The notes beneath the pieces were generated by a model. It was not told where the DNA came from. It saw nothing but the letters and a program-made list of their open reading frames with translations, and made no database searches. From Comamonas sp. JUb58 (GTDB lineage Bacteria > Pseudomonadota > Gammaproteobacteria > Burkholderiales > Burkholderiaceae_C), in NCBI RefSeq assembly GCF_004364775.1, contig NZ_SOAL01000009.1, forward strand, positions 1 through 64,000: 64,000 nucleotides of DNA, given 5' to 3'. The position numbers were made by a program, and so were the translations under genes. Positions 10,474 to 21,629 of the stretch are shown piece after piece. Numbering within the stretch: the stretch's first letter is position 1; each line of letters begins with the position of its first letter.

Positions 10474-10685
10474 TGCACCGGCCATGTGCTGCACGTCGTG
10501 ATTCTGGTGACATTTACTAACAACTTCGCTTAAGAGCGGACAACGCTCCGCCGAGGTTCCTGGAAGCAGATGGTTTCCGTGTCAGCAGCGCAAAGCAAAA
10601 ATTCGAAATCGAAGTAATCGAGCCTGGAAGGAATTCCGGGCTCGCTTTGAATGAACAACTGATTTACTTGCGGGAGAAGAGCGAC

Positions 10686-11732
10686 ATGAAAAAAGCAGCA
10701 TTGGTGGCGGCAATGGCCGTCTTGGCATTGGCAGGCTGCGAAAGCACCGGTATGAAGCTGGGCGGCGGCACCAACAACATGGTGACCGGCGGTGCAGCAG
10801 GTGGCAGCAGCCAAGGTGAAAACAGCCAACTCGAAAAGTGCGATTCGCCCGTAGGTACCGTGTCCCTGGTCGAGAACCAGCAAGCCGGTTGGTACACCAT
10901 TCTGCGCAACGAATACCGCCTGCCTCCGACCGCCAATCTGCTGCGCGTGCTGATCCAGCAATCGAACTGCTTCGTGGTGGTGGAACGCAGCGCTGCCGGC
11001 ATGAACGCGATGAACCGCGAGCGCGCGATGATGGACAACGGTGAAATGCGCAAGGGCAGCAACTTCGGCAAGGGCCAGGTGGTCGCATCGGACTACGGCC
11101 TGACGCCTGAAGTGACCTTCAGCGAAGACAATGCCGGTGGCTTTGGTGCTGCCTTGGGCGGCATCCTGGGCGGCCGTGGCGGCGGCGCGCTGGCCGGTGT
11201 GGCTGCCAACAGCAAGACCCGTGAAGCCTCGGCCATGCTGACCCTGGTGGACAACCGCTCGGGCGTGCAAGTGTCCTCGTCGACCGGTAACGCCAGCAAC
11301 ACCGACTGGGGCGGCTTTGGCACCCTGTTCGGTGGTGCGGCAGGTGCCAGCATGGGTGGCTACTCCAACACCTCGCAAGGCAAGGTCGTGTCGGCCGCTT
11401 TCGTCGATGCCTACAACCAGATGGTGCAGGCACTGCGCAACTACAGCGCGCAATCCGTCAAGGGCCAAGGCCTGGGCGGTGGCGGTCGCCTGGGTGTGGA
11501 TGGCGCCGCAGCGCCTAGCCAGACCTCGGCACCGGGCGCCAAGAGCGCCAATGTGCGCATGACCATGAAGCAAGCGCAGCAGCGCCTCAACGAACTGGGC
11601 TACGACGTGGGCACGCCCGATGGCGCCTCCGGCCCCCGCACCCAGAACGCACTGCGCTCCTTCCAGCAAGACCAGGGCCTGACGGTCAGTGGTCGTCTGG
11701 ACCAGGCCACGATGCGCCAGTTGTCGGAATAA
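10686..11732 (+). CDS. CsgG/HfaB-fold lipoprotein with a C-terminal peptidoglycan-binding domain
   Basis: A 348-residue lipoprotein with lipobox Leu-Ala-Gly-Cys18. The middle resembles the CsgG family (Leu-Leu-Arg-Val-Leu-Ile-Gln-Gln-Ser, Val-Val-Val-Glu-Arg, a Tyr-Gly-Leu-Thr-Pro-Glu-Val segment, and a late Ala-Ala-Phe-Val-Asp-Ala-Tyr-Asn-Gln-Met-Val helix), interrupted by Gly-rich loops. The last 60 residues form a PG_binding_1 repeat (Gln-Gln-Arg-Leu-Asn-Glu-Leu-Gly-Tyr...Thr-Gln-Asn-Ala-Leu-Arg-Ser-Phe-Gln). It therefore probably links the outer membrane to the cell wall; whether it forms a pore is unknown. ATG at 10686 follows GGGAGAAGAG and gives the signal peptide. Alone, with its own terminator. 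Confidence 0.8.
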   Translation: MKKAALVAAMAVLALAGCESTGMKLGGGTNNMVTGGAAGGSSQGENSQLEKCDSPVGTVSLVENQQAGWYTILRNEYRLPPTANLLRVLIQQSNCFVVVERSAAGMNAMNRERAMMDNGEMRKGSNFGKGQVVASDYGLTPEVTFSEDNAGGFGAALGGILGGRGGGALAGVAANSKTREASAMLTLVDNRSGVQVSSSTGNASNTDWGGFGTLFGGAAGASMGGYSNTSQGKVVSAAFVDAYNQMVQALRNYSAQSVKGQGLGGGGRLGVDGAAAPSQTSAPGAKSANVRMTMKQAQQRLNELGYDVGTPDGASGPRTQNALRSFQQDQGLTVSGRLDQATMRQLSE

Positions 11733-11760: not shown

Positions 11761-11787
11761 CTCGCCGCTTACCCCGGCGGGTTTTTT
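11761..11787 (+). terminator. Terminator of the CsgG/PG-binding lipoprotein gene
   Basis: Stem CTCGCCG/CGGCGGG (one G-T pair) followed by six T. It ends at the stop codon of the convergent kinase gene. Confidence 0.7.
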
Positions 11788-13862
11788 CATGCCCTGTCGA
11801 TGGCCTCGTCGATATCGGCAGGTGGCTGGGTCTCCATGAACTCCTCGATATCGCAGCGCAGCTGCAGCTCGCGGGCCAGCAGCTTGTGCAGCTGGCGCGG
11901 GTCGATGGGCTTGTGCATCAAGGTGGCCCCCAGGCTGTTGGCCATCTGCAGCCGTTTGGGGGCCGTGTCGCCGGTCAGGATCACATAGTGGGGCAGCATC
12001 TGCTGCCAGGGCAGATGCTCGGCCGTGGCATCGCGCACGGCCCGCACCACCATGCTGCCGTCTTCGGTGGCCGACAGGCGCAGGTCGGTCAGCACCACAT
12101 CAAAGGGCTTGCTGTTGCTCTCCTGCATATGGCCGATGAGGCGGCGCACCTGGTCCACCGTGGCAGCGCTCATCACCTGGCAGTGCCACTGCTCCAGCAT
12201 GCTGGCCAGACCCACGCGCACCAGCGGCTCATCGTCCACCACCAGCACCTTGAGGCCATGCAGCGAGGAGTAGTCGCCGTCGTCCGGCTGCTCCCACAGC
12301 CCGGCGACCAGGCCATAGCCGCCGGCGGGCACGGCCTCGGCCATCAGGCTCACCCGGAACACGCTGCCGCGCCCCGGTACCGATGACAGCGCGACCTGCA
12401 CATTCAAAATATCGGCCAGCTCGCGCACGATGGCCAGGCCCAGCCCCAGGCCCTTGCTGCCCATGTGGTGGTCCTCGCCCACCTGGCGGAACTTCTGGAA
12501 GATCAAATCGTGGTGTTCGTCATCGATGCCCACGCCGGTATCCCAGACCTCGATCACGCGCTGCATGCCGCGTTTGCGCACCCCCAGCAGCACACCGCCC
12601 TGGTCGGTATAGCGCAGCGCGTTGGACACCAGATTGCGCAGCAGCATGAACAGCAGCGACTGGTCGGTGTAGATCCAGTCCTCGCTGTCGCGCACGCGGA
12701 AGACCAGGTTCTTGGCATCGGCCTGCGGGCCGAACTCTTTCTCCAGCCGGCGCAGAAAGCCGGCAATGGCCACCGGCTGGAACTTGGGGTCCAGCACCCC
12801 GGCCTCGATGCGCGAATAGTCCATCAAGGTGTCGAGCATCTCGCGGCTGGCCGACAGCGCTGCGCGCGCATGCTCCAGCACCACCGCCTGCTGGCTGTTG
12901 AGGCCCGAGCCGCGCAAGGTCTCCAGAAACAGATTGAGCGCCTGCACCGGCTGGCGCAGGTCATGGCTGGCGCCGGCCAGAAAGCGGTTCTTGGCGCGTA
13001 CCGCGTTCTGGGCTGAGCGGGTGTGGTCGTTCAGGTGCTGTTTGTAGGAGGCAATGGCGCGGCCCAGCTGGTCGATCTCGTCGCCCCATTGCTGGGGCAC
13101 GGCATAGATGCCGCCAAACTCGTCATTGCTGACCTCGCGGCGCAAGGCCACCAGGCGGCGCGACACCGAGGCATGCATGTAGATGCCCGCCATCACCACG
13201 CAGAGGATCAGCACGGCCACCAGCCAGTTCAGGTTGCTCTGCTGCGCGGCCACGTCGCGCGACAGCTGCACGCTGCGCTCATTGAGCTGGCGCCGCAAAT
13301 CGGCTGCAGCGCGGCTGGCCAGTAGGGACATGTCGGTGGCCAGCATCTGGTTCTCGGCCACCAGATGGAAGACGGCGCGGTCATCCAGGCCATGCTGGGC
13401 TGGCTGAAAAATCGCCTGGCTCAGCTGCTGCACATTGGCATTGAGCGCATTGCGCTTGGACTGCATCAGCGGGTCGATCGCGCCATCCAGCCGGGTCTGC
13501 GTCATCTCTCCGAGCAGCTTGTCGAGCCAGCCCATGCGGTCGGTCAGCTCCACCATGTTCAGGCGCCGCTCGCCCATGTCATTGGTGATGGCCACCAGGC
13601 GCGCATAGCTGCCGATCATCTCGCTTTGCTGCATCACCCGGGTGCTGGCGATGAGCTGCTCCATCTCCACGCTGGACAGCTGCTGCAAGGCCTGGTTGGT
13701 GCGGCGCAGGCCCTGCAAGGTCAAGGCAAACACCACCGCAATGCCCACGGCCAGAATCACCAGCATCAGCAGAATGCGCGAGGTCACCGACATCGGAAAG
13801 CTGCGCTTGTCCGGTGCGGCCTGCGCGGCAAGCGCTAGAGAGGGGAGCGGTCTGTCTGCCAT
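11787..13862 (-). CDS. Hybrid sensor histidine kinase with C-terminal receiver
   Basis: 691 residues. A membrane helix near residues 29-48 is followed by a roughly 165-residue helical, presumably periplasmic, sensor region and a second membrane helix near 215-232. Then come a HAMP-like linker, a phospho-acceptor box Gly-Ala-Ser-His-Asp-Leu-Arg-Gln-Pro-Val and an HATPase domain (Asn-Leu-Val-Ser-Asn-Ala-Leu-Arg-Tyr, Asp-Thr-Gly-Val-Gly-Ile, Gly-Leu-Gly-Leu-Gly-Leu). A receiver follows with Val-Asp-Asp-Glu, phospho-Asp in Leu-Thr-Asp-Leu-Arg-Leu and Lys in Met-His-Lys-Pro-Ile. It is the last gene of a regulator/binding-protein/kinase operon, five bases after the binding-protein gene. Start at 13862 is likely; a Met 22 codons later is an alternative. 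Confidence 0.9.
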   Translation of the reverse strand: MADRPLPSLALAAQAAPDKRSFPMSVTSRILLMLVILAVGIAVVFALTLQGLRRTNQALQQLSSVEMEQLIASTRVMQQSEMIGSYARLVAITNDMGERRLNMVELTDRMGWLDKLLGEMTQTRLDGAIDPLMQSKRNALNANVQQLSQAIFQPAQHGLDDRAVFHLVAENQMLATDMSLLASRAAADLRRQLNERSVQLSRDVAAQQSNLNWLVAVLILCVVMAGIYMHASVSRRLVALRREVSNDEFGGIYAVPQQWGDEIDQLGRAIASYKQHLNDHTRSAQNAVRAKNRFLAGASHDLRQPVQALNLFLETLRGSGLNSQQAVVLEHARAALSASREMLDTLMDYSRIEAGVLDPKFQPVAIAGFLRRLEKEFGPQADAKNLVFRVRDSEDWIYTDQSLLFMLLRNLVSNALRYTDQGGVLLGVRKRGMQRVIEVWDTGVGIDDEHHDLIFQKFRQVGEDHHMGSKGLGLGLAIVRELADILNVQVALSSVPGRGSVFRVSLMAEAVPAGGYGLVAGLWEQPDDGDYSSLHGLKVLVVDDEPLVRVGLASMLEQWHCQVMSAATVDQVRRLIGHMQESNSKPFDVVLTDLRLSATEDGSMVVRAVRDATAEHLPWQQMLPHYVILTGDTAPKRLQMANSLGATLMHKPIDPRQLHKLLARELQLRCDIEEFMETQPPADIDEAIDRA

Positions 13863-13867
13863 GGTTC

Positions 13868-15397
13868 TCAGTTCTGCCAGCGCAGGTCTTCCAGCGCAAA
13901 GGTCGGGATGGGGCACTTGGACCACATGCCCACCAGGCCCTTGCGCATGAAGTTGCGCTCCGGCCGCACAACGATGAAGGCGTTGACCGCATCCTCGGCC
14001 AACTGCCTTTGCGCCTGGCCTAGCCACTCGTCCAGCTCCTGCGGCGATGCCGAGGCGCGTAGCTTTTCCCAGATCTTCTTGAACACGCGGTTGTTGTAGT
14101 TGAAGTAGTAGTCATCGCGCGCATAGATGCCGATGTCCATCGGCTCCACATGCATGATCAGGCTCAGGTCATAGTCCTTGCGCTTCATCACCTGGTCCAG
14201 CCAGGTGGGCCAGTCCATGCGGATGATCTCGACCTGCAGGCCAATGGCTTCCAGCTGCGCGGCCACGATCAGGCTGCCATAGCGCCCGTAATCGGTAGGC
14301 GGTACCGCCAGGCGCAGGCTGGTGCCCGGCGCCACCTGGGCCTGGGCCAGCAAGGCCTTGGCCTGTGCCAGGTCGTAGGGGTAGCGCGGCACCAGGTCGA
14401 CATAGGCCGGGTGGTGCGGCGAGAAGTGGCTGCCAATGGGCAGCACCTCGATGGAGCCGCCATAGATGTCCTGGTAGCGGCTGCGGTCCAGCGCATGGTT
14501 GATGGCGCGCCGCACCCGGATGTCGTTCAAGGGCGCGCGGGCATTGTTCATCGCGATCAGCAGCTTGCCTTCGACACCGCGCTGGCCCATCACATAGTCG
14601 GTACGCGCCATGAAGGAGGCCGTCAGCCGCGTCACCGAGCTGAGCGCATCGATACGGCCTTCGGCCAGCATGTTCTCGGTCTCGGCCGCGCTGGACATGA
14701 AGAGGAAATCCGCCAGGCGGATGGCGGGCTTGCGGCTGTCCCACCACTGCTCATTGCGCACCAGGGTGATGGACTTGCCCTTGGTCCATTTCTCGACCTG
14801 GTAGGGGCCGGTGCCCACGGGCGTGCTGGCATTGTTGGCCGCGCTGTCGGGGTGCACCATCACCGCGCCGGGCATGGCCAGCGCATAGCTGAGCAGCGCA
14901 TCAGGCTCGCTCAGGCGGATGCGCAAAAGGTACTCGTCCTTGGCCTCGACGGATTCAAGCTTGTCGAACCATTCCAGGTAGGCATTGGTGTTCTTCATCT
15001 GCAGCAGGCGCTGCAGGCTGAAGACGGCCGTCGCGGCATTGAAGGTCTTGCCATCGTGGTAGCGCACATTGCGGCGCAGCACCATATCGACCTGCTTGCC
15101 GTCCTGGCTCACCGTCCAGCTCTGCGCCAGGCGCGGCTTGATCTGGCCCTGCCCATCGATGATGGTCAGGCCCTCGAACACATTGGCATAGGTGATCTCG
15201 CTGGCCGTGGCGGCCGCGGTGCTGGTGATGTCGAACGAGGAGGGCTCCAGCGGTATACCGATGCGCAGGCGCTCCGACGCGGCCTTGGCGGGCGCAAGGC
15301 CTACCAGGCAGCAGAGCAGCAAAACAGCCAGCGCCCAGCGCATCCACTGGGGCTTGTCTTTGAGGCCTATGTCCATCATGGCTTCCTGGTTGTACAC
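13868..15397 (-). CDS. Orphan peptide-type ABC solute-binding protein (SBP_bac_5), probable sensor partner
   Basis: 509-residue exported protein of the dipeptide/oligopeptide-binding family. A hydrophobic signal segment spans residues 20-40 (ending Ala-Lys-Ala-Ala), then Arg-Ile-Gly-Ile-Pro-Leu-Glu-Pro-Ser-Ser-Phe-Asp, Tyr-Ala-Asn-Val-Phe-Glu-Gly-Leu, and a Tyr-His-Asp-Gly-Lys-Thr-Phe motif. No permease or ATPase genes adjoin; instead it lies between a LuxR-type regulator and a hybrid kinase on the same strand. This suggests it presents a ligand to the kinase rather than feeding a transporter (inference). Several Met residues near the N-terminus leave the exact start open. Confidence 0.85.
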   Translation of the reverse strand: MYNQEAMMDIGLKDKPQWMRWALAVLLLCCLVGLAPAKAASERLRIGIPLEPSSFDITSTAAATASEITYANVFEGLTIIDGQGQIKPRLAQSWTVSQDGKQVDMVLRRNVRYHDGKTFNAATAVFSLQRLLQMKNTNAYLEWFDKLESVEAKDEYLLRIRLSEPDALLSYALAMPGAVMVHPDSAANNASTPVGTGPYQVEKWTKGKSITLVRNEQWWDSRKPAIRLADFLFMSSAAETENMLAEGRIDALSSVTRLTASFMARTDYVMGQRGVEGKLLIAMNNARAPLNDIRVRRAINHALDRSRYQDIYGGSIEVLPIGSHFSPHHPAYVDLVPRYPYDLAQAKALLAQAQVAPGTSLRLAVPPTDYGRYGSLIVAAQLEAIGLQVEIIRMDWPTWLDQVMKRKDYDLSLIMHVEPMDIGIYARDDYYFNYNNRVFKKIWEKLRASASPQELDEWLGQAQRQLAEDAVNAFIVVRPERNFMRKGLVGMWSKCPIPTFALEDLRWQN

Positions 15398-15459
15398 CTG
15401 CCTGGCATCGGGCCGGCAAGTGGCATGGCGCTGGCGCTTGGGCGGCGACAGCAGCAGCT

Positions 15460-16113
15460 TTATTTGATGGCCGTGGCGGGCAGGATTCCGTTGCGCTGTG
15501 CCACCAGCACCGCCTGGGTTCGGGTATCGGCGCCCAGGTGCTTGAGGATGGACGCCACCTGGTTGCGGATCGTATGTTCGCTCAGCCCGAAATGCTTGGC
15601 AATGGCCTTGTTGCTGAAGCCCTTGGCCAGCATCTTGAGCACCTCGTACTGGCGCAGCGGCAGCACCTCGGCATGGGGCTTGGCGTCTGGCGTCAGGCTG
15701 CGGCCGCTGGCCTTGTGGATGTTCTGTTCCATGCCCAGGCTGCGCAGCAGCCAGTGCTGCACCTGGGCGCAGATGGCCTCGGGCTCCAGCGCCTTGGAGA
15801 TAAAGCCGGAGGCGCCCTGGCGCACGGCATCGCGCATCAGCTCGGGGTGGTCATGGCCGGAGAGCATCACCACATAGGCACCGGGCCAGCGCTTGCGGAT
15901 CTGGCCGATGCCTTCGAGCCCGTCGCAGCCGGGCATGCTGATGTCCAGCATCACCAAGTTGACCCAGTGCTCCTGCGCCACCGCATCGGTGACGGAGCCG
16001 GCCTCGTGGATATCGGCCTGCAGCATGTTGCTGCTCATCAGCATCATGCGCAGGCCCTGGCGGAAGAGGGGATGGTCATCCACCAGCATGACCGATGGCA
16101 GTGGCAGTGTCAT
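15460..16113 (-). CDS. LuxR/NarL-type response regulator
   Basis: 217 residues: receiver with Val-Asp-Asp-His-Pro-Leu-Phe-Arg-Gln-Gly, phospho-acceptor Asp in Met-Leu-Asp-Ile-Ser-Met-Pro-Gly, and Lys in Ser-Lys-Ala. A Pro-containing linker follows, then a GerE helix-turn-helix (Leu-Ala-Lys-Gly-Phe-Ser-Asn-Lys-Ala-Ile-Ala...Ser-Glu-His-Thr-Ile-Arg-Asn-Gln). ATG at 16113 is preferred for its GAAGGAG ribosome site. First gene of the leftward sensory operon; its promoter region is shared with the rightward secretion operon, its most obvious target. Confidence 0.9.
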   Translation of the reverse strand: MTLPLPSVMLVDDHPLFRQGLRMMLMSSNMLQADIHEAGSVTDAVAQEHWVNLVMLDISMPGCDGLEGIGQIRKRWPGAYVVMLSGHDHPELMRDAVRQGASGFISKALEPEAICAQVQHWLLRSLGMEQNIHKASGRSLTPDAKPHAEVLPLRQYEVLKMLAKGFSNKAIAKHFGLSEHTIRNQVASILKHLGADTRTQAVLVAQRNGILPATAIK

Positions 16114-16361
16114 ATCCGCAGGCTCCTTCTTGCGGCATGGTGGGCGCATGTCTTCATGGCCCGTACCTTACATCTATTTACTAAAGCAACCAATAGTCCA
16201 TATGAACTAGTGCGCATTTCGGCGACATCGATAGATTCCTAGTATTCGCTGAAATAGAAAAAAGTCCAATGATTTTTATAGATTTATTGATGATGTATGC
16301 CTGCCTCTGGTGGAGGTTTTGCACCGCAAAGTGGCCTCTAAGCTAGTACATCTGGTCTATT
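16114..16361. promoter_or_regulatory. AT-rich divergent control region between sensory and secretion operons
   Basis: About 250 bases, markedly AT-rich compared with the surrounding genes and without reading frames. The 9-mer TCTATTTAC occurs at 16173-16181 and again at 16356-16364, and AGTCCA recurs. It is the expected binding area for the LuxR-type regulator, but no defined operator can be proven. Confidence 0.5.
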
Positions 16362-16374
16362 TACAATTACTTAC
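16362..16374 (+). promoter_or_regulatory. Probable -10 element of the secretion operon
   Basis: TACAAT (16362-16367) is a good -10 but has no recognisable -35 at 17 bases, as expected for an activator-dependent promoter. Initiation would fall near 16374, immediately before the leader hairpins. Confidence 0.45.
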
Positions 16375-16422
16375 GGCCAGCCGACCATGCATCCCATGCG
16401 ATGGCTGGCCGCCATGGGATGC
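16375..16422 (+). promoter_or_regulatory. Leader with two mutually exclusive hairpins
   Basis: GGCCAGCC (16375-16382) can pair with GGCTGGCC (16403-16410), while GCATCCCATG (16389-16398) can pair with CATGGGATGC (16413-16422). The two stems overlap in their loops and arms, so only one can form. They lie about 60 bases before the first start codon of the operon. No T-run follows, so a simple terminator is not indicated. Confidence 0.5.
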
Positions 16423-16481
16423 CTGTCGTCGCTCCATCTGTTTTGCCCATGAACAGCACAACACCCAACTGTGAGGACGAC

Positions 16482-17057
16482 ATGAAACACAGCTCCCTCT
16501 ACCTCGCCGCTGCCTTGCTGACGGCGGCCGCTTCCAGCCACGCACAAGGCTGGCTCGGCGAATCGGTGCCCTGGCAGTTCCAGACCAGCGCCGACCGGGC
16601 CAACCGGGCCCTCACCAACGACCTGATCGAGAAGAAAAAGGGCGGCTACTACGACGCCTTCAAGAGCACCTACATCACCAACATCGAGCGCCAGGTGAAC
16701 TGCAACTTCCAGCCCACCGCCGCCGGTAACAGCAGCTCGGCCGACCAGGCCAACCAGGTCGCATCGCCACAGACCAATGCATCGGCCGGCAACAGCGCAT
16801 CGAGCACCGGCAGCGCCAGCGAAAGCAGCGACAACCTGGGCCGTGGTGGCGTGGCCAACAACAACCAAAGCAACAGCGGCGCCATCAGCAGCGGCGTGCA
16901 GGGCAGCCCATCGAGCACCACGATGGCGCCCATCAACAGCGAAAACGCCCATGGCCAGCAGGACATGCAGGTCGCGCAAAACAACAGCGGCAACCAAAGC
17001 ACCAACGTGAGCGGCAGTTCGGCCTGCCAGTTTGGCGCCAGCGGTGCCATCAACTAA
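16482..17057 (+). CDS. Small secreted Asn/Ser/Gln-rich protein of the CsgG/HfaB-type operon
   Basis: 191 residues with a signal peptide ending near Ser-Ser-His-Ala-Gln (about residue 22). Residues 23-75 look folded (Trp-Leu-Gly-Glu-Ser-Val-Pro-Trp-Gln-Phe; Tyr-Ile-Thr-Asn-Ile-Glu-Arg-Gln-Val-Asn-Cys). The rest is low-complexity Asn/Ser/Gln/Gly/Ala, much like amyloid subunits, ending with a second Cys near the C-terminus that could pair with the first. ATG at 16482 follows GAGGACGAC. Position ahead of a CsgG/HfaB-like gene resembles HfaA of Caulobacter or CsgF of curli loci, but I cannot establish homology. Candidate accessory factor or minor fibre subunit. Confidence 0.7.
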   Translation: MKHSSLYLAAALLTAAASSHAQGWLGESVPWQFQTSADRANRALTNDLIEKKKGGYYDAFKSTYITNIERQVNCNFQPTAAGNSSSADQANQVASPQTNASAGNSASSTGSASESSDNLGRGGVANNNQSNSGAISSGVQGSPSSTTMAPINSENAHGQQDMQVAQNNSGNQSTNVSGSSACQFGASGAIN

Positions 17058-17076
17058 AGCGCGGACGGAGGACACC

Positions 17077-18453
17077 ATGCACGCTTTGAACCTTTCCCCC
17101 CTGTCCGCGCGCGGCCCGCTGCCCCGCCGCACGATGACCCTGTCAGCCCTGGCCGCCACCCTGCTGCTGAGCGGTTGCGCCCTGCCCACCTACCAGCAGG
17201 TGCGCATGGCCGATGACGAAGCGCCCGTGATGCAAGGCCCTGGCCCGCGCCACAACGGCACACCGCTGGACAACAGCTTTGCCTGCCTGTCGCACCGCAT
17301 CGTCGAGCAAGGCAAGGGCCGGCCACCGCTGTCGATTGCCGTCGGCGATATCAAGGACTACACCGGCAAGTACTCGCAGGGCGATGGCAATGTCGTCACC
17401 CAAGGCGGGTCCTTGATGGTCTATTCGGCGCTGGGCAAGCTCGGCGGCGCCATCGATGTGCGCGAGCGCTTCGACACCCGCGTGGCCGAGCTGGAGCTGG
17501 CCTATACCGACCGGCGCCAGCTGGGCGATGGCAACCAGCACGCACTGGCCGATGAAAAGGGCCAGCGCGCCGTGCCTTGGCTGCCGTACTACGGCGGCTC
17601 CATCCTGCGCTCCGACTACTACATCATCGGTGGCCTCACCGAGGTGAACTACAACATCCAGTCGGGCGGCATCGAAGCCCAGGTCAACCAGATCGGCCCG
17701 CGTTACCGCGTCTTCACGATGAACGTGGGCGCCGACCTGCGTATCGTCGAGACCAAGACCTTGCGCGTGGTGCGTGCCGTCAGCCTGCAAAAGCAGATCG
17801 TGGGCCGCGAGATTGGTGCGGGTGTCTTCCGCTTCTTCGGCAGCAACCTGTTCGACATCAACGCCGGCAGCAAGGACCTGGAGCCTGTGCAACTGGGCGT
17901 GCGCACCACTCTGGAGCAGGGCGTGCTGGAGCTGATCAGCACCGTGACGCAAACCCCGGCAGGCCCTTGCATGGAAGGCGCCAAGACAGCGGCCGGCGAG
18001 CCCGCTGCACCAGCGGGCGAGGTACCAGTTACACCGGCCGTTGTGCCCGCGCCGGCACCTGCGCCAGCCGTTGCCCCGGTGGCTGCGGCCACCGAGCCAA
18101 TGCCCGAGAAAACCAAGGCCGCGATGACCTCGCTGGACGTGGTTTTTGAAGAGAACAACACCCGCATTGCCCAGCAATCTGCGACCGCCGCAGAGACCGT
18201 GGCCACCCGCCTGCGTGCCGGCCAGGGCGTGCGCATGGCGCTGCTGGCGCGTGAGAACGAAAACGACCAGAACCCCGCCCGGCGCGATGCGCTGACCGAG
18301 GAGCGCCTGCAAGCGCTGCGCGCCGAGCTGGCCCAGCACGGCATTCCACCCAGCCAGGTGCAGGTGCAGTGGCGGCCGACGCCCGGCGACACCACCGTGC
18401 ACCGCTACGGCGCCGGCTACCGCCTGCTGGCCCGCCTGCAGGTCAAGCCCTGA
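17077..18453 (+). CDS. CsgG/HfaB-family secretion-pore lipoprotein with OmpA-like C-terminal domain
   Basis: 458 residues. Lipobox Leu-Leu-Ser-Gly-Cys34 (Cys15 if the internal Met is the start). Residues 80-310 carry the CsgG/HfaB pattern: Ile-Ala-Val-Gly-Asp-Ile-Lys-Asp-Tyr-Thr-Gly-Lys, Tyr-Tyr-Ile-Ile-Gly-Gly-Leu-Thr-Glu-Val-Asn-Tyr-Asn, Gly-Ala-Asp-Leu-Arg-Ile-Val-Glu-Thr-Lys-Thr, and Leu-Gln-Lys-Gln-Ile-Val-Gly-Arg-Glu. A 45-residue Pro/Ala linker leads to about 105 residues with an OmpA-like beta-alpha-beta pattern (Ala-Leu-Thr-Glu-Glu-Arg-Leu-Gln-Ala-Leu-Arg), probably gripping the cell wall. CsgG proteins form nonameric outer-membrane channels for unfolded amyloid subunits. GGAGGACACC precedes the start; 19 bases separate it from the upstream gene. 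Confidence 0.82.
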   Translation: MHALNLSPLSARGPLPRRTMTLSALAATLLLSGCALPTYQQVRMADDEAPVMQGPGPRHNGTPLDNSFACLSHRIVEQGKGRPPLSIAVGDIKDYTGKYSQGDGNVVTQGGSLMVYSALGKLGGAIDVRERFDTRVAELELAYTDRRQLGDGNQHALADEKGQRAVPWLPYYGGSILRSDYYIIGGLTEVNYNIQSGGIEAQVNQIGPRYRVFTMNVGADLRIVETKTLRVVRAVSLQKQIVGREIGAGVFRFFGSNLFDINAGSKDLEPVQLGVRTTLEQGVLELISTVTQTPAGPCMEGAKTAAGEPAAPAGEVPVTPAVVPAPAPAPAVAPVAAATEPMPEKTKAAMTSLDVVFEENNTRIAQQSATAAETVATRLRAGQGVRMALLARENENDQNPARRDALTEERLQALRAELAQHGIPPSQVQVQWRPTPGDTTVHRYGAGYRLLARLQVKP

Positions 18454-18462
18454 GCAGCATCG

Positions 18463-18530
18463 TTTTTGTAGCTACCAATTTCATAGCTTATAGCGCTTTA
18501 TAGACGGGCACTAAGAGCATAAAACACCCA
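18463..18530. repeat. Comamonadaceae-type short intergenic repeat, copy 1
   Basis: AT-rich element beginning TTTTTGTAGCTACC, containing the dyad-rich TATAGCGCTTTATAGACGGG and ending CTAAGAGCATAAAA. Its layout matches a short element I recognise from intergenic regions of Comamonas, Acidovorax and relatives. A second copy lies at 58402. It separates the HfaB-like gene from the large repeat-protein gene. Confidence 0.45.
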
Positions 18531-18572
18531 AATCACGTCTAGTTTTCCTCCCTGTACCACTAGGAGACAGTC

Positions 18573-21500
18573 ATGTCCCACAAGCACCCAACCTTTCTTC
18601 GCCGGGCACGCCTGGCTCCACTGGCCGCTGCGGCCGCATTGATCGCTGCCACCTCGGGCGTGGCGCTGGCGCAGAGCAACCAAAGCGGCCCTGTCAGCGT
18701 GCTGCCATTGGAAAACCAGACCAGTACTGGCACGGTGAATGCATCGAACGCCAGCACCGTGCAGTACACCAACTTCCCCAGCAATGGCGCGGTGACCGGC
18801 AACGGCGTGGATGCGCTGGCCATTGGCAACCAGCACCGGCTTGCCACCGGTGCGACTGCCGCCCTGACCATCAACAACCAGCCGCTGACGCAGCCCACGG
18901 TGGATATTGCCCAGCAGGTCAGTGGCACCGTCAGCAGCACCACCACGGGCATGGTCGGCGTCAATGCCGCCAATGTGATCGGTAACCACGATGGTGATAC
19001 CGCCAGCGTGAGCAACAACGAAGCCACCTCCACCGCGATCGGCAGCACGGCGGTCGGCACCATGCGGATCACCGGCACAGCGGTGGACATGAGCACCCCG
19101 GCGACGGCTGCGGTTAGCCAGACGGCAACGGGCGCGGTGTTTGGCACCACCTCCCTGACCCAAGTGGGTATTCGCCTGAACCAGACCGGCGGTGCCAACC
19201 CCGCCAATGCCATGGACAACCTGGGGCTGAGTGTCTCGGGCAACCAGGTCGATGCCAGCGCCCAGGCCAACACCACCCAGGCGGGTATCCAGGTGCAGGG
19301 CAGCAGCGTCAATGTGGGAGCCGATGCCAGCAGTACCGTTGACCAAGTGGCCACGGGCCCTGTTTTTGGCATCAGCTCGGTCGGTGGTTTGCTGGGTATC
19401 CGGGTTCAGGGTACCCCCAACCAGCCCATGACGGATAGCACCCTGAGCGTGAGCGGCAACCAGGTGCAAGCCTCCGCTGGCGGCAACCAGCAGACGAGCG
19501 CGCTGCAGATCACGGCATCGGGTGATGTGGTGCAGGCGCCCGGTACGGTTTTGGCCACCACGGCGACCCAGGGCAATGGCGGTCTTGTCCTCGCCTCAGG
19601 CTCGGCCACCACCCTGGGCATCGACAACCAAAAGCCTGGCTCGGCCAACAACAGCTACAGCGTCGCCGGCAACAGCGTCACTGCCCAAGCCGATGGCAAC
19701 AGCGGCAGCAACCGCACGGCCGTGACTGCTGCAGGCAGCATCGACGGTGCCGTGTTGGAGACCACGAATTCCCAGACCCTGGTCTCGCCCGTCGTCACTG
19801 CGGGTGCAAATGTGTTGTCGCTGGGCGTGCAGACCCTGGACAGCAGCAATGACACCATGAGCGTCAGCGGCAACCTGGTACAAGCCCAGGCCCAGGGCTC
19901 CAGCGCCAGCAACCAGACCCGTGCAGGCGCCAGCAACATTGCGGGCAGCCTGGCCACCACGGCCAATACCCAGGTGAATGCTGGCGGTGCCGTTTCGGCC
20001 GGTGCTGGCGCAACGCGCATCGGCAGCAGCTCGACCAGCCTGTCTGGCAGCAGCCTGACGGTGAGCGGCAACCAGGTCAGCGCTGACGCTACGGCCGCCT
20101 CCGCCACCAACGATGCCCAACTGGGTGCCGACAATACGGTGACGCAATCGGCCGCCGTGGTGATGAACACGCAGGGCCATGCCTTCGGCGAAGTGGAAGC
20201 CAGCGCCAGCTCCAACCTGGTGGGCGTAGCGACTACCAGCGCCACCAATTCCACCCTGGTGGTCAGTGGCAACCAGTTCAGCGCCAGCGCTGCCAGCCAG
20301 AAGGCCGACAACCTGGCCCGCATCAATGCGACCAATGGTGTGGTTGATTCTGGCGCCATCGTGGTCAATGTGCAGGACCACCAGGCCGGCAATGTCGGTG
20401 CCACGGTCGCAGACTTCATCAACGTCAGCCCTGCGCCCCAGCCAGCCCCGATGCTGATCGGACTGCGTGCCGACACGGCCTCGGGCGGCAGCCTCACTGT
20501 CACCGGCAACCAGGGCGCTTCGGATGCCATCGTCAACCAGGCGAACAACCAGGTCTCGATGGCCGGCAGCCGCATCGATGGCAGCTCCGGGGCCGTTCTC
20601 TACAACGCACAAAACGTGTCGTCGGGCAATGCGCAATCGCTCACCTGGGTCAACCTGGGGGCAGATGGCAATACCGTGGCAGACACCACGCGTGCCGGTG
20701 GCCATGAGCTGGTGGTGAGCAACAACCAGTTCAGCGCCAATGCCAGCCAGAACCAGGCCGTCAACAGCCTGGAGATGAACGCCGTCAGCACCCTGGGAAC
20801 GGGCGGCCTGCAGCCGGCACTGCTGGGCAGCGTGCAGACCTCGGCAGGCGAGACCTCGGCAACCACGCAGATGGACATCCTCAGTGGCAACAGTGTGGCT
20901 ACCGATGCCAGCGGCAATACCACCATCACCGGCAACCAGGCCAGCAGCATGGCGCGTGCCAACGTCGCCAACAACCAGCTGACCCTGGCTGCCGGCACGC
21001 AGGCCAGCGACCAGTTGGCCGTTCTGGCCAATACCCAGGGCAACACCGGTGCAGTGAGCGCGACCACCCGCCTGCAGGCAGGCGGCACTGCTGCCAACCG
21101 TCTTGACGGCAACATCACCACCACCGGCAACCAGGCCTCGGCCGTAGCGGCAGGCAATACCTCGCTCAACAACGTGCAAGTGGGTGTGGGCACAGCGCTC
21201 AACAGCGGCTCGGGTGTGGGCTTGCTCAACTCGCAGTCCAATAGCGGCACTGTGGTGGCCACCGCAAGCCTGAACGCTGATGGCTTCACCCGTGGCAGCT
21301 CGCTCAACTTGAGCGGCAACATTGCCAGCGCCACGGCCGTGGGCAACAACGCGGAGAACGTGGTGAACGTGTCTGCGCTGCCGGGCCAGCAAATGGCCAG
21401 TGCGGCACTCACCTCCAACCAGGTCAACAGCGGCAACGTGTCGGCCGTGGTCAATGGCAGCTACAGCGCCTCCGGTGTACCGGGCACCAGCGGCATCAAT

Positions 21501-21575
21501 GTGTCGGGTAACCGCTCGTCTGCAGTGGCAATTGGCAACCGCTCTACCTCATCGATGACATTGGGTGTGCAATAA
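18573..21575 (+). CDS. Large secreted repeat protein, probable fibre or adhesin substrate
   Basis: 1000 residues, signal peptide ending Val-Ala-Leu-Ala-Gln (about residue 34), no membrane anchor. The mature chain is almost wholly Ala/Ser/Thr/Asn/Gly/Val/Gln; I see no Cys and no Trp apart from one near residue 695. From residue 221 a motif of the form Val-Ser-Gly-Asn-Gln-x-x-Ala-x-Ala-x-x-Asn recurs twelve times at intervals of 64-79 residues, with a second recurring element Asn-x-Gln-x-x-x-Gly-x-Val-x-Ala between. This pattern suggests a beta-solenoid or amyloid-like rod. It follows the CsgG/HfaB-like gene by 120 bases and has a strong terminator, so it is the obvious export substrate. Position compares with Caulobacter HfaD, but length and repeats differ. 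Confidence 0.8.
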   Translation: MSHKHPTFLRRARLAPLAAAAALIAATSGVALAQSNQSGPVSVLPLENQTSTGTVNASNASTVQYTNFPSNGAVTGNGVDALAIGNQHRLATGATAALTINNQPLTQPTVDIAQQVSGTVSSTTTGMVGVNAANVIGNHDGDTASVSNNEATSTAIGSTAVGTMRITGTAVDMSTPATAAVSQTATGAVFGTTSLTQVGIRLNQTGGANPANAMDNLGLSVSGNQVDASAQANTTQAGIQVQGSSVNVGADASSTVDQVATGPVFGISSVGGLLGIRVQGTPNQPMTDSTLSVSGNQVQASAGGNQQTSALQITASGDVVQAPGTVLATTATQGNGGLVLASGSATTLGIDNQKPGSANNSYSVAGNSVTAQADGNSGSNRTAVTAAGSIDGAVLETTNSQTLVSPVVTAGANVLSLGVQTLDSSNDTMSVSGNLVQAQAQGSSASNQTRAGASNIAGSLATTANTQVNAGGAVSAGAGATRIGSSSTSLSGSSLTVSGNQVSADATAASATNDAQLGADNTVTQSAAVVMNTQGHAFGEVEASASSNLVGVATTSATNSTLVVSGNQFSASAASQKADNLARINATNGVVDSGAIVVNVQDHQAGNVGATVADFINVSPAPQPAPMLIGLRADTASGGSLTVTGNQGASDAIVNQANNQVSMAGSRIDGSSGAVLYNAQNVSSGNAQSLTWVNLGADGNTVADTTRAGGHELVVSNNQFSANASQNQAVNSLEMNAVSTLGTGGLQPALLGSVQTSAGETSATTQMDILSGNSVATDASGNTTITGNQASSMARANVANNQLTLAAGTQASDQLAVLANTQGNTGAVSATTRLQAGGTAANRLDGNITTTGNQASAVAAGNTSLNNVQVGVGTALNSGSGVGLLNSQSNSGTVVATASLNADGFTRGSSLNLSGNIASATAVGNNAENVVNVSALPGQQMASAALTSNQVNSGNVSAVVNGSYSASGVPGTSGINVSGNRSSAVAIGNRSTSSMTLGVQ
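19233..21545 (+). repeat. Twelve diverged coding repeats (VSGNQ motif)
   Basis: The VSGN(Q) motif begins at residues 221, 293, 364, 431, 497, 564, 643, 715, 785, about 849, 913 and 977 of the large protein. Spacings are 72, 71, 67, 66, 67, 79, 72, 70, 64, 64 and 64 residues. DNA identity between units is low outside the motif, so the repeats are old rather than freshly duplicated. Confidence 0.85.
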
Positions 21576-21599
21576 GCCGCAAGGCCTTGCACTTTGACA

Positions 21600-21629
21600 G
21601 CCCGCCTGGGTAACCAGGCGGGCTTTTTT
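21600..21629 (+). terminator. Strong terminator of the secretion operon
   Basis: Perfect ten-base-pair stem GCCCGCCTGG/CCAGGCGGGC, GTAA loop, then six T; 24 bases after the stop. Confidence 0.93.

Follow-up and report, generated by a model that had tools for sequence, protein, structure and literature searches.

A probable adhesin export operon with a CsgG/HfaB-type pore in Comamonas sp. JUb58, related to the Caulobacter holdfast anchor

The window analyzed in this work is a stretch of 64,000 nucleotides (contig NZ_SOAL01000009.1, positions 1 to 64,000) from the 5.46-Mb genome of Comamonas sp. JUb58, whose closest relative among the named genomes scanned is Comamonas koreensis. Its forward strand carries three co-directional genes: gene 1 (16482..17057), encoding a small secreted protein of 191 amino acids (aa); gene 2 (17077..18453), encoding a CsgG/HfaB-type outer-membrane pore lipoprotein of 458 aa; and gene 3 (18573..21575), encoding a secreted repeat protein of 1000 aa, the presumed export substrate and adhesin. 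Open reading frame calls bore out the reality and coordinates of these genes as given in a preliminary description of the locus. Here, we propose that the operon probably encodes a system for adhesin export that is undescribed so far and related to the holdfast anchor of Caulobacter; no description of this operon type was found in the literature searched, whose coverage leaves out most subscription journals.

The assignment of gene 2 to the CsgG/HfaB-type pore lipoproteins, already made in the preliminary description, was confirmed by matches to the Pfam family CsgG (PF03783; residues 86-297, 9.6e-15, 54.9 bits, exceeding the cut-off of 20.8), to the NCBIfam family HfaB (NF037935; residues 28-290, 3.8e-68, 229.5 bits, below the cut-off of 300), and to solved CsgG chains (1.3e-8 with the single protein and 4.2e-11 with a six-sequence alignment). 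By eye, a lipobox was recognized that ends at Cys34, and a lipobox-like pattern (pattern matching only) is present in 80 of 81 gene 2 proteins, the exception being locus L145, where the start is misplaced. Residues 357-432 form a degenerate OmpA-like C-terminus that the preliminary description had overlooked: their match to Pfam OmpA is weak (14.1 bits; the cut-off of 27.2 is not reached), and the tail of the six-sequence alignment weakly matches OmpA-family chains (best 0.018). Of the 81 pores, the window counted, 69 have this OmpA-like region filled, and three of the 12 pores without it (L125, L139, L140) are truncated by a contig end. From its homologs, gene 2 is inferred to form an oligomeric outer-membrane pore. 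The window also encodes a second lipoprotein with a CsgG domain (10647-11732, forward strand, 361 aa as called; 32.3 bits, above the Pfam cut-off); its C-terminus looks peptidoglycan-binding by eye, no partner genes were recognized beside it, and it is also found in C. koreensis-like relatives.

The protein encoded by gene 3 begins with a signal peptide (by eye) and is strongly repetitive. A strict repeat motif occurs in 11 copies, compared with a maximum of three in 2000 shuffles, and a looser reading of the motif gives 14 copies spaced 63-79 residues apart; the repetitiveness claimed in the preliminary description therefore stands, whereas its exact count of twelve repeats does not. Comparison of the gene 3 profile with itself gives peaks at lags 67 and 133 that exceed the maximum of 200 column shuffles. 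The AlphaFold2 model (predicted local distance difference test, pLDDT, 88.2; predicted template modelling score, pTM, 0.89) is nearly all beta with a period of about 67 residues, and its all-beta repeats reach the C-terminus, so that the protein is predicted to fold as a long all-beta repeat rod. No Pfam or NCBIfam family was matched at E up to 1, including domains of two-partner secretion (TPS), autotransporters and barrels, and an aldolase match of the profile among PDB sequences (E 0.017) was taken as chance. The shortest gene 3 relatives as called measure 432 aa (L126) and 454 aa (L145), the longest more than 2137 aa (L078 and L087, both open at the end of the DNA), although some of the longer calls are overlong and start inside gene 2 (e.g., L083 and L093), L082 is fragmented, and some profile scores are low (minimum 39 bits, L114). 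In Xenophilus E41 (L016, L109, L111), gene 3 has an in-frame stop after codon 482, which may mark a young pseudogene or be a sequencing matter.

Gene 1 encodes, as previously stated, a small secreted Asn/Ser-rich protein, with a signal peptide recognized by eye and a composition of 17.3% Ser, 14.7% Ala and 11.0% Asn. It belongs to no Pfam or NCBIfam family, and an alignment of 71 members gave nothing consistent against Pfam (E up to 5), as did the search of gene 1 against PDB sequences (E up to 10). The tripeptide WQF, located in a predicted helical region, is present in 77 of 81 gene 1 proteins and missing in L075, L078, L087 and L098. Its invariance in the 71-sequence alignment, which was also used for folding and comprises the window and 70 of the 76 WQF-bearing loci, is partly a matter of selection, because the members were drawn from WQF-bearing proteins; the other invariant columns include both cysteines and the Q-x-N pairs. 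A pair of cysteines, likewise overlooked before, is found in 79 of the 81 proteins, and the other two have three. Strands of the type Q-x-N-x-G exceed shuffled controls in both gene 1 and gene 3.

The distribution of the operon was assessed at several taxonomic levels. Relatives of gene 2 were detected in eight of the 53 Comamonas genomes and in 2 of 150 genomes of the family (own genome counted), and a gene 1 profile finds exactly the same eight of 53 Comamonas genomes. With the own genome again counted, the HfaB model matches 4 of 300 genomes of the order, two of which (L025 and L026) look like curli loci by their neighbors, and 18 of 398 genomes of the phylum, 11 of them above its cut-off. 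When named genomes were scanned with gene 2 as the only query, 90 stretches were confirmed, of which the best 80 underlie the counts of named loci; the scan is biased toward the present pore branch because of its two peptide patterns. A gene 1 relative lies upstream of gene 2 in all 80 loci, and a gene 3 relative lies downstream in 70. Among the remaining ten, a secreted repeat protein begins and runs off the sequence in four (L075, L090, L098, L146), the sequence ends inside gene 2 or at most 220 bases past it in five (L088, L118, L125, L139, L140), and in L131 a different gene follows gene 2 before the sequence ends; in L124, genes 2 and 3 are about 1 kb apart. Joint conservation of the three genes, named in the preliminary description as one of two points on which its proposal could fail, was thus confirmed by the survey of loci. 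The carriers include Comamonas, Variovorax, Limnohabitans, Novosphingobium, Sphingomonas, other sphingomonads and Aureimonas, and, judging from the genomes scanned, the three-gene set is one that recurs together in many bacteria of water, soil and plants. Variovorax paradoxus VAI-C carries the operon on a 293-kb plasmid, where the one annotated record calls two of the products hypothetical proteins and the remaining one, of 1566 aa, an S-layer family protein; plasmid carriage is exceptional in the plasmid collection searched, since only one record with a DNA-level match was found there.

Two operons are present in one genome in several cases (L090/L110, L105/L112, L107/L114, L118/L136, L130/L133 and several Variovorax), and in some of the sphingomonads with two operons gene 3 products of about 1030-1100 aa and about 1380-1400 aa stand side by side.

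The present operon shares with curli the CsgG pore family and Asn/Gln/Gly-rich repeat substrates, but its substrate is one chain of 1000 aa, its layout is different, and it lacks the curlin repeat, CsgE and CsgF. Searches of the whole JUb58 genome for curlin repeats (PF07012, at E 0.001), CsgE (PF10627) and CsgF (PF10614) found none, with positive E. coli controls, in agreement with the earlier statement that CsgE is missing; the earlier reading of one long repeat protein as the presumed substrate is also supported. Curli loci without csgE exist, and CsgA homologs reach 22 repeats, according to Dueholm et al. 2012 (PMC3521004); neither the lack of CsgE nor a long substrate is new by itself, because this source reports both in curli. 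The proposal of a “third, streamlined type” of exporter accordingly overstates the distance from known systems, since the order of a small gene, a pore gene and a large gene is that of hfaA-hfaB-hfaD, HfaABD itself comprises three genes, and curli without csgE have already been published. Two-partner and autotransporter beta-helix adhesins, such as EtpA and Fap2, differ from the present system, which has a CsgG-family pore and no TPS or barrel domain.

The closest resemblance is to the HfaABD holdfast anchor. Both systems have the order of a small gene, a CsgG-type pore gene and a larger repeat-protein gene (in the window and in 70 of 80 loci), and HfaA and HfaD share short Q-x-N-x-G strands with genes 1 and 3. 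In loci of the Caulobacterales type, which show the same order as the window, the small gene encodes 117-180 aa, the pore about 330-350 aa (clean calls) and the third gene about 410-490 aa (outliers: 316 and 319 aa). In contrast, the third protein of the present type measures from about 1000 to over 2100 aa, genes 1 and 3 are not recognizable as HfaA and HfaD, gene 1 has conserved features and a Cys pair of its own, and most pores bear the OmpA-like tail. A further difference concerns the polysaccharide exporter HfsD, which we take to be a member of the Poly_export (Wza) family. All eight Comamonas carriers lack this family, which 20 of 45 non-carriers possess (Fisher p 0.019, weakened by the kinship of the carriers), so that in Comamonas the system must work without a Wza/HfsD-type exporter. 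In addition, none of the 22 carrier genomes examined from among the 80 loci has a pore above the HfaB cut-off.

A tree of 59 pores was built from the window, 40 of the 80 named loci, L061, L062, 14 canonical HfaB sequences and two CsgG sequences; the label “canonical” was assigned by the score of the hidden Markov model and by neighbors, and in the tree it also takes in the outliers L024, L059, L060 and L063-L067. The canonical sequences form their own clade (96/99), and the present-type pores make up the remainder of the tree, which with the far CsgG outgroup is not one clade (2 changes); the root is unsure, given the great length of the outgroup branch and a long-branch warning from the program. 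Most likely, the operon belongs to a line within the HfaB family that is separate from the Caulobacter anchor. Filing it as HfaABD is unjustified, because gene 2 scores below the HfaB cut-off and the Comamonas carriers have no Wza/HfsD-type exporter. The product name “CsgG/holdfast attachment protein HfaB” serves as an adhesion marker in one paper (PMC10128055).

Other layouts were noted among the HfaB-type loci. In L063, L064 and L065, the gene after the pore gene encodes a secreted protein (319, 584 and 251 aa, respectively) that begins with a Trp-rich part. Response regulators stand close by, and upstream no gene resembling HfaA was found; this may be another layout. In L024 (8289-10534, reoriented; Burkholderiales-order genome G203), the pore scores 297.5 bits, just below the HfaB cut-off, two small secreted proteins (195 and 139 aa) are encoded upstream, and no HfaD-like gene lies directly downstream.

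The surroundings of the operon vary among genera. In the window, a hairpin followed by a T run (21599..21624, forward strand; pattern match only) is the presumed operon end; its stem of 11 pairs is the longest of five such sites, with 5.6 expected. Upstream, the divergent intergenic region (16114..16481) contains two blocks conserved among five aligned Comamonas carriers and is presumed to be regulatory. It leads to a divergent gene for a NarL-type response regulator (15460..16149, reverse strand), a possible local regulator that was seen beside the operon in Comamonas only and belongs to a group (11787-16149, reverse strand) encoding also a family 5 solute-binding protein (SBP) and a hybrid histidine kinase. 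This divergent trio, found in the window and in the seven other Comamonas carriers, may act on the operon as a switch that senses peptides or metals. It was rejected as part of the core system, because the 76 named loci outside Comamonas yielded no SBP relative; regulator or kinase matches in seven of the 76 (L078, L081, L087, L092, L115, L120, L121) are mostly weak, strongest in L121, and make up no conserved trio. A search with one Variovorax EAL protein as query revealed EAL relatives upstream of gene 1 in 17 of the 80 loci, in beta- and alphaproteobacteria, two of them from one Xenophilus strain. The EAL domain was confirmed in all four of the upstream proteins tested, and the gene can lie directly upstream and co-directional with the operon (L180, 5895-7007; also L105, L109 and L113). 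A Crp-family gene is located near the operon in nine of 80 loci. The EAL neighbors suggest control of the operon linked to cyclic di-GMP (c-di-GMP) outside Comamonas.

Starting from the pore family, the signal peptides, the conserved three-gene set, the repeat periodicity and the predicted beta rod, we consider it rather probable that the operon exports and anchors a protein adhesin in the manner of HfaABD, but without holdfast polysaccharide and, in Comamonas, without a Wza/HfsD-type exporter. In such a system, the gene 2 lipoprotein would assemble into an oligomeric outer-membrane pore, as its homologs imply, and the Sec-exported proteins 1 and 3 would pass through this pore unfolded. Outside the cell, protein 3 would fold into the predicted long beta rod and reach a surface or other cells, presumably mediating adhesion. 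Protein 1, with its conserved WQF-helix region and a repeat part bounded by the cysteine pair, would hold the rod at the mouth of the pore or start its folding. In Caulobacter, HfaA and HfaD are reported to depend on HfaB for arriving at the outer membrane (PMC6707917).

Several observations weigh against this interpretation. Compared as mature proteins by HHalign, gene 1 and HfaA align over only 21 columns with a probability of 9.6% (score 23.7 vs a maximum of 14.2 in 40 column shuffles), and gene 3 and HfaD over 19 columns with a probability of 6.9% (score 33.3 vs a maximum of 16.6 in 30 shuffles); an earlier gene 1-HfaA comparison with signal peptides kept had given a probability of 82% over 41 columns, which was lost once they were removed. 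The AlphaFold model of gene 1 is poor (mean pLDDT 41.7), with confidence limited to the surroundings of one helix (mature residues 15-32). The gene 3 model has no significant Foldseek match (best E 0.056, template modelling score, TM, about 0.05) and no meaningful match in a viral structure library (best E 1.8e-3, TM about 0.1), and this lack of structural matches in the lists searched is no proof of a new fold. Outside Comamonas, relatives show far fewer copies of the strict repeat motif (0-8), and in the remaining 63 of the 80 loci the single-query search detected no EAL gene.

The same data can be read in other ways. It is conceivable, though doubtful, that the operon represents a separate and so far undescribed class of CsgG-type secretion, in which one chain of 1000 to more than 2000 residues would pass a CsgG/HfaB pore without CsgE or CsgF and form a single beta rod outside; gene 1 would provide both an N-terminal pore plug and a disulphide-closed repeat cap, the neighbors would vary by genus, often with an EAL gene, and the HfaABD of Caulobacterales may be a shortened, specialized offshoot. 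CsgF plugs the curli pore with its N-terminus. Because the gene 1 model is confident only around one helix, the idea of a plug in the present system goes back to a presumed likeness of the WQF region to that N-terminus. A holdfast-type anchor, in which proteins 1 and 3 tether an exopolysaccharide as HfaABD does, with the polysaccharide arriving by a route other than Wza/HfsD, is unlikely: the gene order and pore family shared with hfaABD and the c-di-GMP-related EAL genes at 17 of 80 loci fit it, but Poly_export is missing from the eight Comamonas carriers and found in 20 of 45 non-carriers (no search was made for polysaccharide systems of the synthase type), and no HfaB above the family cut-off occurs in the 22 carrier genomes. 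In Caulobacter, the hfsDAB strain is reported to have lost the anchor density (PMC6707917).

Polymerization of proteins 3 and 1 outside the cell into cross-beta fibers resembling curli amyloid, with gene 1 as nucleator, is quite unlikely. The CsgG-family pore and the Q-x-N-x-G strands above shuffled controls agree with this scenario, as do the multimers of HfaA resistant to sodium dodecyl sulphate and heat (reported in PMC6707917) and the CsgA homologs with up to 22 repeats (PMC3521004); against it stand the lack of curlin repeat, CsgE and CsgF in the genome and the confident monomeric fold predicted for gene 3, whose size makes polymerization unnecessary. Finally, the genes might be linked and gene 2 be a structural or stress-related CsgG-family lipoprotein, with gene 3 leaving by another route. 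CsgG-domain proteins do exist outside such operons, as at 10647-11732 of the window, but this explanation is highly improbable given the tight three-gene linkage over many genera, the absence from gene 3 (at E up to 1) of autotransporter and two-partner domains, and the scores of gene 2, which with 229.5 bits against HfaB is far closer to that family than to the general CsgG model (54.9 bits).

If the proposed adhesin export and anchoring system is correct, many freshwater, soil and plant-associated bacteria would have a common surface adhesin system, annotated in the one record inspected as two hypothetical proteins and an S-layer family protein, and CsgG-type pores would be able to pass chains of more than 2000 residues without the curli accessory proteins. 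The operon would also provide a gene set lacking the holdfast exporter, in which to test what HfaA- and HfaD-like partners do.

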